Source: Halostella salina
GTDB lineage: Archaea > Halobacteriota > Halobacteria > Halobacteriales > Natronoarchaeaceae
Length of the DNA: 64,000 nucleotides
Direction: 5' to 3'
Assembly (NCBI RefSeq): GCF_003675855.1
Contig: NZ_RCIH01000005.1
Span: forward strand, 248,001 to 312,000
Of this stretch, positions 3,653-22,289 are shown piece after piece. Below the pieces are notes generated by a model. That model saw only the letters and a list, made by a program, of their open reading frames with translations. It ran no database searches and was not told the DNA's origin. Position 1 is the first letter of the stretch. Every line of letters begins with the position of its first letter. A program made the position numbers and the translations under genes.

Positions 3653-6139
3653 TCAGGCCTGTGCCTGCCAGTCGCGGATCCGGTCGGCGCTGACGCCGTC
3701 CACGTCGGCGGCCACCTCGTCGGGGTCGGCGTCGGCCAGGTCGGCGATGCTCTCGACGCCGGCCTCGGCGAGTTTTTCGGCCGTTTTCGTCCCCACGCCG
3801 TCGAGCGCTTCGAGGTCCGAGCCGGAGTCGCTCTCGCGGGCCTGGTACTCCCGGTAGTTGCAGACGGGACAGCCGAGTTCCCACGGCTCGTCGCCGTTGT
3901 GGACGAGCAGTTCGGGCAGGTCGTGCTCCTCGCAGCGCCCGTCGGTGACCTCTATCTCGCCGCGGCGGGGCAGCGGCAGCGAATAGTCGCAGTCGGGGTA
4001 GCGCGTGCAGCCGACCAGCCGCGAGCCGTTGCGGAGCTGTTTGATCGTCAGCTCCCCGCCGTGCTCGTCGTGACAGGATGGACAGTCGCCGATGACCGGC
4101 CCTTCGCCGGCCTCGTCGGCCTTGCACTGCGGGCAGCCGTGGACGAACGTGCTCCGCCCGGCGAGCATCTTCACGTGGTGGAGGTCGTGGTCCTCGCAGA
4201 CCTCGTCGAGGATGAGCGGCTTCCCCGTGTTCGGCAGGGGCAGCGTGTACTCGCAGTCCGGGTAGCCGTCGCAGCCGACGAACGCCGACCCCCGCGAACT
4301 CCGGCGGACGAGCAGGTCGTCGCCACAGTCGGGGCAGGGGCCGAGCCGCTTGTCGGCCTTCAGCGACTTCCGGAGGTGGTCGCCGACCTCCTCGCGGGAG
4401 TCGGTCAGCGACTCGAATACCGTCTCCAGCATCTCGCGGCTCTCCTCGGTCACGTCGTCGAGCGTCGCCTCGCCCTCCGCGATAGCGGTCATGTCCCGCT
4501 CCAGTTGCTTGGTCATCCCCTCGCTGACGACGCGGTCGGCGTACTCCTCGGCCGCCTCGACGACCGCCATCGCCAGTTGCGTCGGCCGGGGCGGGTCGTT
4601 CTCGACGTACCCGCGGTCGTACAGCTTCTCGACGGTGTTGTGGCGGGTCGACTTCGTCCCGATTCCCATCTCCTCCATGGTTTCGATGAGCCGGGACTGG
4701 CCGTAGCGCCGCGGCGGCTGGGTCTCCTTCTCCTCCAGGCGCACGTCTGTCACCGACAGCTCCTCGCCCTCGCTCACGTCGGGGACGTAGTTTTCGCTGG
4801 TCGAGAAGTACGGGTACACGTCGTGATACCCCGCCTCGACGAGGCGCTTGCCGTTTGCCTTCAGGGAGCAGTCGTCGACGCTCCCGACGACCTTGAGGTG
4901 CTCCCACTCCGCCGCCTCGGCGACGGTGGCGAAGAAGCGCCGGACGACGAGTTCGTACACTTCCCACTCGTCGTCGGAGAGTTCGCCCGCGCCGGGGAAC
5001 TCGCCGGTCGGGTGGATCGGCGGGTGGTCGGTCGTCTCCTCGTCGCCCTCGGTCGGGTCGATCCCGTCGAGTTCGAGCAGGGCTTCGGCGTCCCCGCCGA
5101 ACTCGCGGTGGCCGACGAACTCGTCGAGGAGGGTCTCCGGGTCGAGGTCCTCGGGGTACACCGTGTTGTCGGTCCGGGGGTAGGTGATGTAGCCCGCGGT
5201 GTAGAGGTCCTCCGCGATGCTCATCGCGCGCTGGGCGGAGTAACCGAGGCTCCCGGCCGCGCGGATGAACTGCGTGGTGTTGAACGGCGCTGGCGGCGCG
5301 TCGGTGCGGGTGCGGCGGTTGACCCGGTCGACCGTGACTGCACTCGCGTCCGCGAGGGTGGCGTACGCTTCCTCGGCAGCGTCCGCGTCCCAGACGCGTT
5401 CGGCCTCGTTGTCGTCCTCGTCGCGGTAGAAGTACTGGGCCTCGAAGGCGTCGTCCGTGCCGGCCTTCAGCAGGTCGGCGTAGATCTCCCGGTACTCCTC
5501 CGGGTCGAAGTCGCGGATCTCGCGCTCGCGGTCGACGATGAGCTTCAGCGTCGGGGACTGGACCCGGCCGACGCTGATGAAGTCGTCGCCCAGCTGGCCG
5601 GCCGACAGCGAGAGAAAGCGGGTGAGCGCCGCGCCCCACACGAGGTCGATGATCTGGCGGGCCTCACCGGCGGCCGCCAGGTCGAAGTCCAGCTCCTCCG
5701 GCTCGGCAAACGCGTCGCGCACCTCGTTGTCGGTGATCGAGGAGAAGCGAACGCGCTGGATCGGGACCTCGTCGTTGACCTCGCGGACGAGTTCGTACGC
5801 CTCCTTGCCGATGAGCTCACCCTCGCGGTCGTAGTCGGTGGCGATTGTGACGGCGTCGGCGTCCCGGGCCAGCAGGCGCAGCGTGCGAACGATGTTCTCC
5901 TGGGTCGGCCGCTTCTCGACCTCGGCGTCGACGAGCTCCACCGGCTCCACGTCGCGCCAGTCGCTGTACTCGTCGGGGAAGTCGACGCCGACGACGTGGC
6001 CGGAGAGACCGATACAGCGCTTCCCGCCCCAGCCGTACACGTTGACGCCGTTTCGCCGCTCGGCGTCGGCGCTCCCGCCGCTCAGGATGTCGGCGATCCG
6101 GCGCGCCGCGTTGTCCTTCTCGGTGATTATCAGTTCCAC
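3653..6139 (-). CDS. topA: DNA topoisomerase I (type IA)
   Basis: Relaxes negatively supercoiled DNA through a 5'-phosphotyrosine intermediate. The TOPRIM domain comes first (ELIITEKDNAARRIADIL, then TDYDREGELIG with Asp102), followed by the type IA core with catalytic Tyr320 in YITYPRTDN. Several Cys4 zinc ribbons follow (CPDCGDDLLV, CDGYPDCEY, CPQCKA, CPSCHDE, CTRYPDC, CPVCNY). A C-terminal helix-hairpin-helix starts at LEALDGVGTKTAEKL. I chose the GTG at 6139 because it begins directly at the conserved TOPRIM strand, giving 828 residues. The upstream ATG at 6226 would add 29 Arg-rich residues unlike the family. It ends 15 bp from the convergent aldehyde dehydrogenase. Confidence 0.93.
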   Translation of the reverse strand: MELIITEKDNAARRIADILSGGSADAERRNGVNVYGWGGKRCIGLSGHVVGVDFPDEYSDWRDVEPVELVDAEVEKRPTQENIVRTLRLLARDADAVTIATDYDREGELIGKEAYELVREVNDEVPIQRVRFSSITDNEVRDAFAEPEELDFDLAAAGEARQIIDLVWGAALTRFLSLSAGQLGDDFISVGRVQSPTLKLIVDREREIRDFDPEEYREIYADLLKAGTDDAFEAQYFYRDEDDNEAERVWDADAAEEAYATLADASAVTVDRVNRRTRTDAPPAPFNTTQFIRAAGSLGYSAQRAMSIAEDLYTAGYITYPRTDNTVYPEDLDPETLLDEFVGHREFGGDAEALLELDGIDPTEGDEETTDHPPIHPTGEFPGAGELSDDEWEVYELVVRRFFATVAEAAEWEHLKVVGSVDDCSLKANGKRLVEAGYHDVYPYFSTSENYVPDVSEGEELSVTDVRLEEKETQPPRRYGQSRLIETMEEMGIGTKSTRHNTVEKLYDRGYVENDPPRPTQLAMAVVEAAEEYADRVVSEGMTKQLERDMTAIAEGEATLDDVTEESREMLETVFESLTDSREEVGDHLRKSLKADKRLGPCPDCGDDLLVRRSSRGSAFVGCDGYPDCEYTLPLPNTGKPLILDEVCEDHDLHHVKMLAGRSTFVHGCPQCKADEAGEGPVIGDCPSCHDEHGGELTIKQLRNGSRLVGCTRYPDCDYSLPLPRRGEIEVTDGRCEEHDLPELLVHNGDEPWELGCPVCNYREYQARESDSGSDLEALDGVGTKTAEKLAEAGVESIADLADADPDEVAADVDGVSADRIRDWQAQA

Positions 6140-6283: not shown

Positions 6284-8287
6284 TCAGTCGCCCTCGAACA
6301 GCGCGCCGAACAGCTCCGACTGGGCCAGCCGCAGGTGGTTGTGGAGGGTCGGCGACGCGATGTCGAGGGAGCCGGCCACCTCCTCGGCGGTCCGGTCGCG
6401 GGGCCACTCGAAGTAGCCCGAGCGATAGGCCGTCTCCAGAACGGCCCGCTGGCGCTCGGTCAGCAGGCCGAGCAGGTCGGTGGCGTCCCGACTCGGGTCC
6501 CGGTCGTCGCCGTCCGTCCCGCGATGCTCGCGCTGTGCCAGCAGCTCCATCCCGTCGAACTCCGCCGTCACTGCCTGTACGAGCGACCGCACGTCCGCCG
6601 TCGTCGGCAGTTCCACCGTGATCCGCGCGGTCCCGTTGGCCGCCGTCATCGACGCGACGCTCGCCCCGTACGACGCCAGCGTCGCGGCGACGGTGTCGTC
6701 CGTCGTGGCGAACTCGAAACAGCACCGGTCCCCGTGGTCCCGTACGAGCGTCGCGTCCTCGACGACGCTCGCCTCGGCCGCGGCGGCGCGGACGGCGTCC
6801 GGCGACCCGTCGTGGACGGTCACGTACACGAGGTCGGACCCGTCCGTGCGCGGCGTCATCCCGTCGAACACGATCCCCACGTCGGTTCCCGCGGTGACCC
6901 CGGTGAAGAAGTAGTCGTCGTCCGTCAGCCGGAACTCCAGTTCGGTCCGCTCGTCGGCCACCAGCGCCTCCTTTCGGTCGACGGCCGTCATCGCGTGCCC
7001 GATCATCCGCCCGAGTTCCTCCAGCACTGCGGTCTCGCGCTCGTCGAACGCCTCCGCCGCGTCCTCGTACAGCGCCACGACGCCGAACACGGTCTCGTCG
7101 TACTGGATCGGGACGACCGCCGCCGACCGGAGTCCGCAGGAAAGCGCGGCGTCCCGCCACGGTTCGAACCGTTCGTCGGCGGTGATGTCGTCGACCACCG
7201 TAACGGTGCGGTCGCGGACCGCCTGCCCGGCCGGCCCCCGGTCGGAGAGGCTCTCCGATACCGTCGAGGTGACCGCATCGAGATAGCCGTCGGCCGCGCC
7301 GGCCTGCACCCGCGGCACGACCGTGTTCCGCGCGAGGTTCTCCCGCCCGATCCAGGCGAAGGTGTATGGTCCGGACTCCGCAAGCCCGTCGCAGACCGCC
7401 CGCTCTATCTCCGTGCGCGACGCGGCGTCGACGAGAACGCGCGCCACCTCCCGGATGACCCGATTGATGCGGTCGAGTTCCGCCAGTTCGTCGCGCTGGC
7501 GCTCCAGCGTCGCCTCGCGCTCGCGCTGCTCCGTCACGTCCCGGACGATGGCGATGAACAGCCGTTCGTCGCCGCGGCGGGCCGCGTGGACGGAGACGGA
7601 GAGCGGGACCGTCCGGCCGTCGCGGTGGTGCCCGGAGACCGACGCGTCGACCCAGCCGCCGGTCGCACCGCCCGCGACGCACCGGGCGAACGAGTCGAGG
7701 AACGCCTCGCGGCGCTCGGGGCGGACCAGATCCGCGACGTCCGACCCCACGACCTCCGAGGGCTCGTAGCCGAAGACGCCCTCGACGGCCGCGTTCGCGA
7801 ACCGCACCTCGGCGCGGTCGTCCACGACGAGGATCGGGTCCCGGCCCTGCCGGACCGTGCGGTCCAACAGCAGGTCCGCCAGCGGGGACTCGCCGGATTC
7901 CCCGCGGGCGAGTACGCCCGACACGCGGGCCGCCAGTGCGTCCGGCCCGTCCGCGACCCGGGCGTAGTCGGTCGGCGGGTCCGTCCCGATGTCGGGAACC
8001 GGTTCCGAGTCGACCAGCACGACCCCGGCGAGGTCCGGCCGGGTTTGCCGCGCCGCGTCGAGGAGTTCGACGCCGCTTCCGTCCGGTAGCGTGGCGTCGA
8101 CGAGGAGGCAGTCGACCGTCCCGTCCGCCCCGTCGAGCACCGCGCTCCGGGAGTCGTCGTCCGGGTTCGCGAGAACGGCATCGGACTGCTCGGCGGCCGC
8201 CGCGACGATGTCCGTTCGGCCTCCGACGTAGAGGATGTGCGGCCGAGTCGACCGACTGTGAGGAGTTGCCAGGGACGACACGGGCAC
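6284..8287 (-). CDS. Bat-like sensor/regulator (receiver-like, PAS, GAF, HTH_10)
   Basis: A 667-residue soluble sensor that probably acts directly on DNA. Residues 15-130 resemble a degenerate receiver (LLVDATLPDGSG, where Asp may be the acceptor). Residues about 140-260 are a PAS domain ending in FIAIVRDVTEQ, and 280-430 a GAF domain (IERAVCDGL to LGRMIGHAM). A Bat-type sensory stretch follows. The C-terminal HTH_10 reads LTERQRAVLETAYRSGYFE, then HNHLRLAQSELF. The family includes Bat (bacterioopsin activator) and DmsR; the ligand here is unknown. It stands alone between topA and gatB with no partner kinase. One Cys pair (DRCCFEF) lies in the Bat domain. Confidence 0.85.
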   Translation of the reverse strand: MPVSSLATPHSRSTRPHILYVGGRTDIVAAAAEQSDAVLANPDDDSRSAVLDGADGTVDCLLVDATLPDGSGVELLDAARQTRPDLAGVVLVDSEPVPDIGTDPPTDYARVADGPDALAARVSGVLARGESGESPLADLLLDRTVRQGRDPILVVDDRAEVRFANAAVEGVFGYEPSEVVGSDVADLVRPERREAFLDSFARCVAGGATGGWVDASVSGHHRDGRTVPLSVSVHAARRGDERLFIAIVRDVTEQREREATLERQRDELAELDRINRVIREVARVLVDAASRTEIERAVCDGLAESGPYTFAWIGRENLARNTVVPRVQAGAADGYLDAVTSTVSESLSDRGPAGQAVRDRTVTVVDDITADERFEPWRDAALSCGLRSAAVVPIQYDETVFGVVALYEDAAEAFDERETAVLEELGRMIGHAMTAVDRKEALVADERTELEFRLTDDDYFFTGVTAGTDVGIVFDGMTPRTDGSDLVYVTVHDGSPDAVRAAAAEASVVEDATLVRDHGDRCCFEFATTDDTVAATLASYGASVASMTAANGTARITVELPTTADVRSLVQAVTAEFDGMELLAQREHRGTDGDDRDPSRDATDLLGLLTERQRAVLETAYRSGYFEWPRDRTAEEVAGSLDIASPTLHNHLRLAQSELFGALFEGD

Positions 8288-19850: not shown

Positions 19851-20873
19851 TCATCCGCCGCGGCTCCGCTGTTCGCGCTCCAGCGCACGCTGGGTCTCCG
19901 CGCCGAGTTTCGCGAGGTGACAGATCGGATTCCCCGGAAAGACGAGCGGGTTCTGGAGGATGCCGACGAGCAGGCCGGTAAACGGCGCGACGACCTCGTT
20001 GGTCGTGGTGCCGAAGGGGTTCGTGATGGTGCAGATCGTCTCGCCCTCGCGGACCAGCGAGCCGCGCATGCGGTGCATCTCCACCATGCCGCCGGTGTCG
20101 GCGCGGAGCCACGTCTTCTCGTCGGAGCCGCTGACGACCGTCCGCCAGCCGGGCCAGCGGACCGCGGCGTCGGGGCGCATGCCGTACTCCGCCATGACGC
20201 TCTCGACGCCGGAGAGCGCGCGGTCGATGAACCCGCGCTGGAACTCGTTCGCCTTCCCCATCTCGATGGTGATCGTCGGCGTCCCCGCCTCGCTGGTCTC
20301 CCGGCGAAGCGTCCCCGACGGCCCCTCGCTGGAGATGATGACGTTCGACCCGAACGCGTGCGCGAGGCGGTTGACCGCGTCGTCGTCCATGTCGGCGCGG
20401 ACGTGGAGCATGTTCGTCCGGCCCCGCGTCGAGGTGTGGAAGTCGATGCCGATGTCGCAGGGCTCGAGGAAGTTCTCGAAGATGCGGTAGGCGATCCGTT
20501 TCGAACTCGTGCTCGTCTCCGACCCGGGGAACGAGCGGTTCAGGTCCCGGTCGTAGATCGGGAGGTAGCGCTGCTGGGCCAGAAAGCCCGGCACGTTCAG
20601 CACGGGGAGACAGACGAGCGTCCCACGGAGGTCGGAGTGGTCCCACTCGTTTGCGACCTCCCGGACCACCTCGACGCCGTTGAGTTCGTCGCCGTGGACC
20701 GCCGCGCTGAGAAACATCGTCGGCCCCGGGCGCTCGCCGTTGACGATGGTGACGGGGATCCGGACGGCGTCGCCCAGATACGTCTCGCTGACGCCGTACC
20801 GAATGTTGGCGGACTCCCCCGGAGCCACGCTCCCCCCGTTGTACGTGAACGGCTCGGCTTCGCTGTCGCTCAT
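19851..20873 (-). CDS. Aspartoacylase/succinylglutamate desuccinylase-type zinc hydrolase
   Basis: A 340-residue zinc carboxypeptidase-like hydrolase that would cleave an N-acyl amino acid or peptide-like amide; the true substrate is unknown. Zinc ligands are visible as AAVHGDELNG (near residue 57) and DFHTSTRGRTN (near 144). PTITIEMGKANEFQRG supplies the likely catalytic Glu. The last 100 residues form the beta-rich domain typical of the family (GGMVEMHRMRGSLVREGE). It is divergent from the ATP-grasp/protease fusion by 93 bp, and the two are probably functionally linked. Confidence 0.85.
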   Translation of the reverse strand: MSDSEAEPFTYNGGSVAPGESANIRYGVSETYLGDAVRIPVTIVNGERPGPTMFLSAAVHGDELNGVEVVREVANEWDHSDLRGTLVCLPVLNVPGFLAQQRYLPIYDRDLNRSFPGSETSTSSKRIAYRIFENFLEPCDIGIDFHTSTRGRTNMLHVRADMDDDAVNRLAHAFGSNVIISSEGPSGTLRRETSEAGTPTITIEMGKANEFQRGFIDRALSGVESVMAEYGMRPDAAVRWPGWRTVVSGSDEKTWLRADTGGMVEMHRMRGSLVREGETICTITNPFGTTTNEVVAPFTGLLVGILQNPLVFPGNPICHLAKLGAETQRALEREQRSRGG

Positions 20874-20966
20874 GTCACTCCAGTCGAAGCCCCCACGTAA
20901 AAGCCTGCCACGTCGGGATGCTGACTATATGGAACCGTTTTAGGGTCTGGCAGTCGAGGAACCGGT

Positions 20967-22289
20967 ATGTCCGGATCCGGAGGGAGCGTCGGCGTCGGCG
21001 TTCTCAGTTTGCACAACAGCAAGGAGACGAAAGCGATACTCAACGCCGTACAGGACCTCGGTCACCGCCCGGAGTGGCTCCGGAAGGAAAACACCGCCGT
21101 TGAGATCGAAGACGGCCATGCGACGGTCGAACCGGAGGTCGACGTCATCGCCAACCGACTCCTGCTGTCGAACACGGACCAGCCCTCCGAGGACCTCGGG
21201 CTGGCGACCACGTTCCAGCACCTCCGGCCGATGCTCAACGAACCCCGGGCCGTGCTGACGGCGATGCACAAGTTCGCCGCCGCGACGAAACTCGTCGAGG
21301 CCGGCGTGCAGGTGCCCGACGCCCTGCTCGCGCTCAGCAACGCGCGACTGAACCGCGACCGGTTCAAGTTCGGCGACGAGGCCGTCTACAAGACCGCAAT
21401 CGGCACCCACGGCGGCGGCACCTGGAAGATCGGGCCGGAGGAGGACGTGAACCCCCGCGTCGGTAACCGGCAGGCGTTCCTCCAGAGCCTGATCGAGCGC
21501 GACGGCGAGCGCCACCGCGACCTCCGCGTGTACGTCGTCGGCGACGAGGTGATCGGCGCGATGAACCGCTACGCCCCGGACAACGACTGGCGAACCAACG
21601 TCGCGCTCGGCGGCGACGTGGAGGACGCCTCGGAGGGGCTCCCCGACGAAGTCGTCGACATCGCGCTGCAAAGCGCCGACGTGATCGGGCTGGACTACGC
21701 CGGCGTCGACCTCGTGGAGGGCGAGGGCGGCTGGTACGTCCTCGAAGTGAACCCGACGGCGGGGTTCAAGGGGATGTTCGAGGCCACCGGGATCAGCCCC
21801 GCGCCCCACATCGCGAAGCTCGCGATCGAGACGGCCGGCGGCACGGTCGACGACGAGCGCGTCGTCGAACTTTCGCGCACGCTCGACGACTCCGTGCCGG
21901 ACTGCAAGCCGTCGGTCCCGCGGACGAACCCCGACGAACCCCTCGTCATCGGCTACACGGAGGAGGTCGTCGTCTCCGGCACCAGCGGGTCGGCCTCCGT
22001 CGTCGCCAAGTCCGACACCGGCGCGACCCGGACCAGCATCGACACGCGAATCGCCGCGGAGATCGGTGCCGGGCCGATCAAGAGCCTCACCAAAGTTCGC
22101 TCGGGCAGTTCCAAGAGCAGCCGGACCCGCCCCGTCGTCGACATCGTCGTCGGCATCGGCGGTACGCGCCATACAGTCACGGCGAGCATCGAGGACCGCA
22201 GCCACATGTCCTACGACATGCTGCTCGGGCGGGACATCCTCAAGGACTATCAGGTCGACGTCCGCCGGCGCGTCGACGCCGAGGAGTAG
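20967..22289 (+). CDS. RimK-type ATP-grasp ligase fused to a retropepsin-like protease domain
   Basis: A 440-residue two-domain protein. Residues 1-310 are a RimK-like ATP-grasp fold (FKFGDEAVYKTAIGTHGGGT, RVYVVGDEVIGAMNRY, YVLEVNPTAGFKG), which would ligate an amino acid to a carboxylate with ATP. From about 320 comes a retropepsin-like domain of the RimB/'ATP-dependent zinc protease' type: KSDTGATRTSID near residue 348 (the Asp-Thr-Gly-Ala catalytic signature) and LLGRDILKDY near 420. Making and cutting functions thus sit in one chain. It is divergent from an aspartoacylase-like hydrolase. Ligase specificity and target are unknown. Confidence 0.85.
   Translation: MSGSGGSVGVGVLSLHNSKETKAILNAVQDLGHRPEWLRKENTAVEIEDGHATVEPEVDVIANRLLLSNTDQPSEDLGLATTFQHLRPMLNEPRAVLTAMHKFAAATKLVEAGVQVPDALLALSNARLNRDRFKFGDEAVYKTAIGTHGGGTWKIGPEEDVNPRVGNRQAFLQSLIERDGERHRDLRVYVVGDEVIGAMNRYAPDNDWRTNVALGGDVEDASEGLPDEVVDIALQSADVIGLDYAGVDLVEGEGGWYVLEVNPTAGFKGMFEATGISPAPHIAKLAIETAGGTVDDERVVELSRTLDDSVPDCKPSVPRTNPDEPLVIGYTEEVVVSGTSGSASVVAKSDTGATRTSIDTRIAAEIGAGPIKSLTKVRSGSSKSSRTRPVVDIVVGIGGTRHTVTASIEDRSHMSYDMLLGRDILKDYQVDVRRRVDAEE

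Follow-up and report, generated by a model that had tools for sequence, protein, structure and literature searches.

The window, a stretch of 64,000 nucleotides from Halostella salina, contains a gene encoding a protein in which a RimK-type ATP-grasp ligase is followed by a retropepsin-like domain and a short, variable tail (Table 1). The reading frame given in the ORF list begins with an ATG at 20967 and closes with a stop codon at 22287–22289; a long ORF on the minus strand of the same bases we regard as a side effect of the GC-rich coding sequence. Transcribed away from the fusion gene is a gene for a hydrolase of the AstE/AspA type. The presence of the ligase and the protease in a single chain, as claimed by an earlier sequence-only reading of this DNA, is borne out by Pfam, by conservation and by fold matches.

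Table 1. Features of the fusion gene and its divergent partner (window coordinates)
Feature	Position	Strand	Basis
AstE/AspA-type (M14-like) hydrolase, 340 aa, divergent partner gene	19851..20873	-	PF24827, adjacency, co-occurrence
93-bp intergenic region separating hydrolase and fusion genes	20874..20966	.	ORF coordinates
RimK-retropepsin fusion gene, 440 aa	20967..22289	+	ORF and Pfam/NCBIfam; full-length relatives in the order
N-terminal and ATP-grasp part, RimK type, ~residues 8-290	20988..21836	+	PF08443, TIGR00768, structure match
Ligase residues K142, D185, R187, D248, E260, N262	21390..21752	+	125/125; aligned with E. coli RimK
Retropepsin domain, ~residues 329-431	21951..22259	+	Pfam, hhalign, AlphaFold, Foldseek
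Catalytic motif D350-T-G-A, residues 350-353	22014..22025	+	D350, G352, A353 in 125/125; exceptions L196, L197
K348, R388, R411, counterparts of polyglutamate-gripping RloA residues	22008..22199	+	Alignment, 125/125
Variable C-terminal tail VRRRVDAEE, proposed Glu acceptor	22260..22286	+	Glu-Glu at 22281-22286; tail statistics

Domains and active sites of the fusion

Pfam recognises the RimK ATP-grasp domain over residues 101–283 (PF08443, 1.4e-23), and the score of 84 bits against a cut-off of 21 identifies it as RimK-type. Membership in the RimK family is indicated by TIGR00768 (145.7 against a cut-off of 143.4), the second-best NCBIfam match being MptN at 115.5 bits against a cut-off of 350. 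The C-terminal part matches PF05618 (Zn_protease, residues 370–435, 1.2e-8) and Asp_protease_2 (residues 341–423, 3.7e-6), while the RimB equivalog model NF052261 yields 16 bits against a cut-off of 200; by its sequence, this retropepsin is RimB-like and not RimB itself. With RimK first and the retropepsin second, the protein also falls outside the definition of the RimBK hybrids, in which RimB is N-terminal. Both domains are present in all 16 members of the group A1.

When folded alone with AlphaFold, the C-terminal domain gave a model of mean pLDDT 77 that matched RloA2, RloA, DUF785, Ddi1 and retroviral proteases in Foldseek and VIA-align. The best Foldseek match was RloA2 (E 4e-6), and VIA-align returned Z scores of 10.6–12.0 to RloA2, DUF785 and EIAV protease, with rmsd values of 2.6–3.3 over 98–102 residues. 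Profile comparison with hhalign assigned a probability of 96.4% to the match with canonical RimB, relative to which the archaeal domain is about 20 residues shorter after the catalytic motif. In the full-length AlphaFold model, the ATP-grasp half is good and the retropepsin half has a pLDDT below 50, giving no usable orientation of the retropepsin; this model matches LysX/ArgX, RimK and the RimK–RpsF complex.

Conservation was evaluated in an alignment of 125 proteins from 125 loci, the window's protein included. Thirteen residues are invariant in all 125: K102, K142, D185, R187, D248, E260 and N262 in the ligase, and K348, D350, G352, A353, R388 and R411 in the protease. The arrangement is not a chance one. 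The six ligase residues of Table 1 align, in order, with K141, D187, R189, D248, E260 and N262 of E. coli RimK; R64 and K102 lie upstream of this block. The ATP/Mg residues K100, K141, D248, E260 and N262 of E. coli RimK have counterparts in 125/125 proteins each. The protease carries the D-T/S-G motif of retropepsins, D350 and G352 being present throughout. The sequence-only reading was right about the Asp-Thr-Gly-Ala signature and two residues off in placing it near residue 348, which is a conserved Lys; D350 is the catalytic Asp.

Loss of the catalytic Asp or of ATP-site residues, which that reading had named as the observation that would count against it, occurs in none of the 125 proteins and in part in two Natrialbaceae plasmid paralogues outside this set, L196 and L197. 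In these, protease residues are lost (D350 is replaced by N and G352 by A in L196, G352 by T in L197, R388 by Q in both), abolishing the retropepsin motif, and the ligase residues checked are intact. The two paralogues, on plasmids of Natrononativus and Natronosalvus, are natural ligase-only variants that end in LEE.

The available text of PMC10092738 reports seven RimK residues in contact with polyglutamate: S7, R8, S14, R64, S68, R189 and N262. Three of these, R64, R189 and N262, correspond to R64, R187 and N262 of the fusion (125/125 each), S7 corresponds to S14 (122/125), and S68 to S68 (111/125, with Thr in 13). The contact R8 is replaced by Leu in 110/125 and S14 by Glu in 125/125, and the counterparts of RimK H215/R216 are mostly Ala/Leu; with these positions altered, the acceptor or the product may differ, and the acceptor channel of the ligase looks somewhat changed. 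For the protease, the accessible part of PMC12239564 describes K46, R114 and R137 of RloA, kept in RimB, as residues that hold polyglutamate, and D48 as catalytic. One constant offset brings these onto K348, R388 and R411 of the fusion, together with D48 onto D350, in 125/125 proteins each, using a numbering shift between P. aeruginosa and P. fluorescens RloA that we infer. The retention of the RloA grip residues and of most RimK polyglutamate contacts suggests a protease adapted to polyglutamate and a ligase adapted to a chain of Glu. The earlier suggestion of a protein that both makes and cuts a peptide modification thus gains support from the kept ATP/Mg residues, the catalytic Asp and the protease residues predicted to grip polyglutamate. 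Elsewhere in the window's genome, a stand-alone retropepsin relative of 107 aa (L050:7581-7904, plus strand; 33–36% identical) has Asp-Thr-Gln in place of the expected Asp-Thr-Gly.

Distribution and a co-inherited hydrolase

Across an even sampling of the phylum (148 genomes), the fusion was matched over its full length in 20/24 members of its own order and in 0/124 others; 16 matches outside the order cover the ligase part, except at one place that reads through three stops. At E<=1e-80 the fusion is detected in 164/195 genomes of this haloarchaeal order, of which it is a core, near-universal protein. A PF05618 match in the control genome, that of Haloferax volcanii, points to an orthologue there. 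The nearest named relatives (84–87%) are those of Halostella pelagica and of a Halobacteriales metagenome bin. A second copy, about 50% identical, is found on plasmids and in several genomes, and four copies (L192, L195, L042 and L144) have a broken frame or an altered C-terminus.

The divergent hydrolase matches PF24827 at 1.2e-47, and its residues H60, E63, H146 and E204, which are presumably those of the zinc site, are invariant in 110/110 sequences. Across the 125 fusion loci, the hydrolase gene is divergent at a distance of less than 400 bp in 95, lies within 5 kb in 16 and was not found upstream in 13, the flank of the remaining locus being too short to place it. Within the order, a close hydrolase (at least 68% identical) is present in 16/16 genomes with the fusion as opposed to 1/15 genomes lacking it (Fisher p 6e-8, kinship ignored). 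Fourteen of these 15 have only distant relatives (31–36%), and the remaining one, G149, which is 86% complete, has a close one; G102, outside the order, has neither the fusion nor a close hydrolase. The hydrolase therefore occurs and is lost together with the fusion.

Genes of the sdh group adjoin the pair in many chromosomes and are absent beside it on the plasmids examined, where in several cases the hydrolase stays with the fusion copy; we accordingly regard the sdh neighbours as incidental. A plasmid of Haladaptatus pallidirubidus (L193) has a different AstE-family gene after the fusion (4533-5513, plus strand; 27% identical to the window's), followed by a gene of the glutamate-cysteine ligase family. 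Next to the fusion, the annotated plasmid loci showed no small Glu-ended LysW-like protein.

The Glu-Glu terminus

Past the last protease strand (about residue 431), both the length of the fusion protein (mostly 7–28 further residues) and its sequence are free to vary, but the end is not. Among 122 distinct closed fusion proteins, the final residue is Glu in 112 and Asp in none, and 93 have a Glu-Glu end. The background, consisting of 627 other acidic ORFs of at least 150 aa from the same loci, contains 104 Glu-ended and 55 Asp-ended sequences and 7 with a Glu-Glu end, one of these 7 being a fusion, L096, missed by the motif filter. Runs of at least four Glu within the last 25 residues occur in 61/122 fusions versus 3/627 other ORFs. 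Glu occupies the last position in 115/124 proteins and the penultimate one in 102/124, but the third from the end in only 35/124. The 122 proteins are related and their counts are not independent; clustering at 70% identity, which provides the conservative figure, produced 13 clusters, and 13/13 representatives are Glu-ended. Eight of the 10 exceptions contain runs of 5–11 Glu near the end, and the other two (L042 and L144) have lost their normal C-terminus. As a further check, nine plasmid copies were inspected: 7/7 open frames end in Glu-Glu and two are broken. The ending does not depend on the action of the protease, as it is kept in L196 and L197, where the protease is damaged.

The tails are 32% Glu, with a Glu/Asp ratio of 2.55 in the tail versus 0.91 in the core. 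Glu endings are infrequent among the neighbouring proteins: 15/108 for the hydrolase, 0/38 for SdhA, 0/45 for SdhB and 0/55 for SdhC. A cause of the GAG-GAG ending at the DNA level, such as a ribosome-binding site, was considered and rejected. The last Glu codon is GAG in 101 cases and GAA in 14, the penultimate one GAG in 67 and GAA in 35 (the rest of the gene has 29% GAA), a mixture that makes a fixed DNA motif unlikely, and the downstream alkA gene, where nearby, is mostly convergent with the fusion.

The tail of the window's own protein has only two Glu. RimB-type cutting needs at least 5–6 Glu, according to the available text of PMC11957791, so this tail is too short to be cut in that way without prior extension. 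No Glu-ended RimK or RimBK was found in 16 bacterial and methanogen loci (0/16), so a Glu tail is not a general feature of the module; nor was a Glu ending seen among four readable plus-strand archaeal RimK-like loci (L025, L026, L027 and L031).

Proposed cycle, alternatives and related systems

RimK polyglutamylation and its removal by a retropepsin have been worked out on the bacterial ribosomal protein RpsF, which archaea are not known to have. The substrates of RimK and LysX are Glu-ended and the fusion itself ends in Glu-Glu; the simplest account is that the fusion carries its own acceptor. We propose, with a probability of about one half, that the protein is a cytosolic alpha-glutamate ligase joined to a polyglutamate-cutting retropepsin, and that it acts on its own C-terminal Glu. 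The target, which the sequence-only reading had left as unknown, can now be narrowed, the best candidate being this Glu-Glu C-terminus.

By analogy with its family, the ATP-grasp domain would activate the terminal Glu carboxylate with ATP and add Glu units. The acceptor would be the Glu-Glu tail that the enzyme itself carries, either in cis or from a sister subunit, standing in for the RpsF tail of bacteria. When the chain has reached a sufficient length, two retropepsin domains may pair and hold the polyglutamate by K348, R388 and R411, and the D350 dyad would cut it, resetting the tail or releasing polyglutamate. In what is the weakest step of the scheme, the AstE/AspA-type hydrolase might then trim leftover Glu or the peptides set free. 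Writer, eraser and substrate would in that case reside in one chain, with a self-polyglutamylated C-terminus cut back by its own retropepsin. We hold this fuller version tentatively, the tail serving either as a regulatory switch or as a primer for poly-alpha-glutamate, much as glycogenin primes glycogen.

It is also possible, but in our judgement unlikely, that the ligase glutamylates a separate Glu-ended haloarchaeal protein, ribosomal or other, that the retropepsin reverses this, and that the fusion's own tail is a docking mimic or autoinhibitor. Such a role has been shown for bacterial RimK/RimB on RpsF in the sections available from PMC11957791, and the 104 Glu-ended ORFs among the 627 background proteins show that candidate targets exist. 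Exact conservation of Glu at the last two residues would, however, need an indirect reason, and no gene ending in five Glu was found in the window's genome when TAA and TGA stops were searched. Improbable, in our estimate, is a ligase that makes free Glu peptides or glutamylates a cofactor, as MptN and CofF do, with the retropepsin and the hydrolase recycling the products. The second-place MptN match is consistent with a cofactor, and RimK does produce free poly-alpha-glutamate, stimulated by RimB, in the available part of PMC11957791. Yet a short cofactor tail would not be expected to call for an endoprotease, and the conserved Glu-Glu end would go unexplained unless the tail were a primer.

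The least probable explanation by a wide margin is a functionless acidic tail typical of halophiles, the Glu end simply reflecting the acidity that haloarchaeal proteins share. Haloarchaeal proteins are acidic, and the tails are rich in Glu overall. However, the fusions never end in Asp, as 55 of the 627 background ORFs do; the Glu/Asp ratio is raised in the tail relative to the core, Glu-Glu ends far exceed their background frequency, neighbouring proteins are seldom Glu-ended and the terminal codons are mixed. The counts of Glu versus Asp and the neighbouring genes lead us to reject general acidity as the cause of the tail.

The sequence-only reading had overlooked that this chemistry is already known in bacteria: both activities and the way they are paired, as well as a fusion of one kind, a hybrid of the opposite domain order, are described in the accessible portion of PMC11957791. 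In Pseudomonas RimABK, as in the role proposed here, RimK adds Glu to a Glu-ended C-terminus and the retropepsin RimB removes it, but the genes are separate and the target is RpsF, whereas the archaeal protein is a fusion with a short, diverged retropepsin. RpsF ends in GDSEE in E. coli and in DNADE in P. fluorescens (PMC11957791, Table 1). The RimBK hybrids of Desulfotalea, with further copies in Thioclava and Aureibacter, likewise combine a retropepsin and a RimK ligase in one chain. They differ from the fusion in having the protease at the N-terminus and a canonical, E. coli-like RimK, in ending without Glu (KAVPRKA, KYVRTND) and, at the two loci examined, in lacking an adjacent hydrolase gene. 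For the Desulfotalea psychrophila hybrid DP2392, the text available from PMC11957791 reports protease activity on polyglutamate and no glutamylation of the RpsF tested, and states that the target of the hybrid is open. RloA of the Pseudomonas aeruginosa RloA/RloB/RloC system is a retropepsin with the same polyglutamate-contact residues; unlike the fusion, it is secreted as a protein of its own and has a membrane partner of transglutaminase-like type, as given in the accessible part of PMC12239564.

A parallel in gene content is offered by the rimB-rimK-astE clusters of marine bacteria and methanogens, in which the same three activities lie side by side. An astE homologue is found beside rimB and rimK in 4/4 separate-gene bacterial plasmid loci and in 9/10 methanogen loci, and these hydrolases are 32–37% identical to the window's. 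The genes are separate, in the order B-K, and RimK is not Glu-ended, in contrast to the fusion. Methanogen-type genomes of the same phylum (L182–L191) have such bacterial-like clusters within the archaea. The AstE/AspA-type hydrolase is thereby suggested as a third component in bacteria too. A 2009 work on ATP-grasp amidoligases by Iyer et al. may predict similar gene links.

In the literature searched, which covers few subscription papers, we found no mention of the reversed domain order, of the protein's near-universality among haloarchaea of one order, of the tail ending in Glu-Glu or of a hydrolase inherited with the fusion, and no description of a haloarchaeal RimK-retropepsin fusion or of RimK self-glutamylation. 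The prediction is that reversible polyglutamylation extends to archaea, where the hydrolase is its tightly linked genetic partner. Given that both activities and an RpsF-like Glu-Glu end reside in one protein, the question of the target becomes a one-protein experiment.

The fusion also shares its ATP-grasp branch with LysX/ArgX, which act on the C-terminal Glu of the carrier LysW, and structures with LysW are among the matches of the model; in those systems the small carrier is separate and there is no protease. As a further step, the tail would be a covalent carrier like LysW for LysX, and the AstE-type hydrolase the releasing enzyme. The window's genome also encodes a LysX/ArgX-type ligase (L051:6341-7210, minus strand) that adjoins a LysW-like protein of 58 aa (7283-7459, minus strand) ending in EDWGE; the ligase is thus a RimK paralogue whose Glu-ended carrier is a protein apart.
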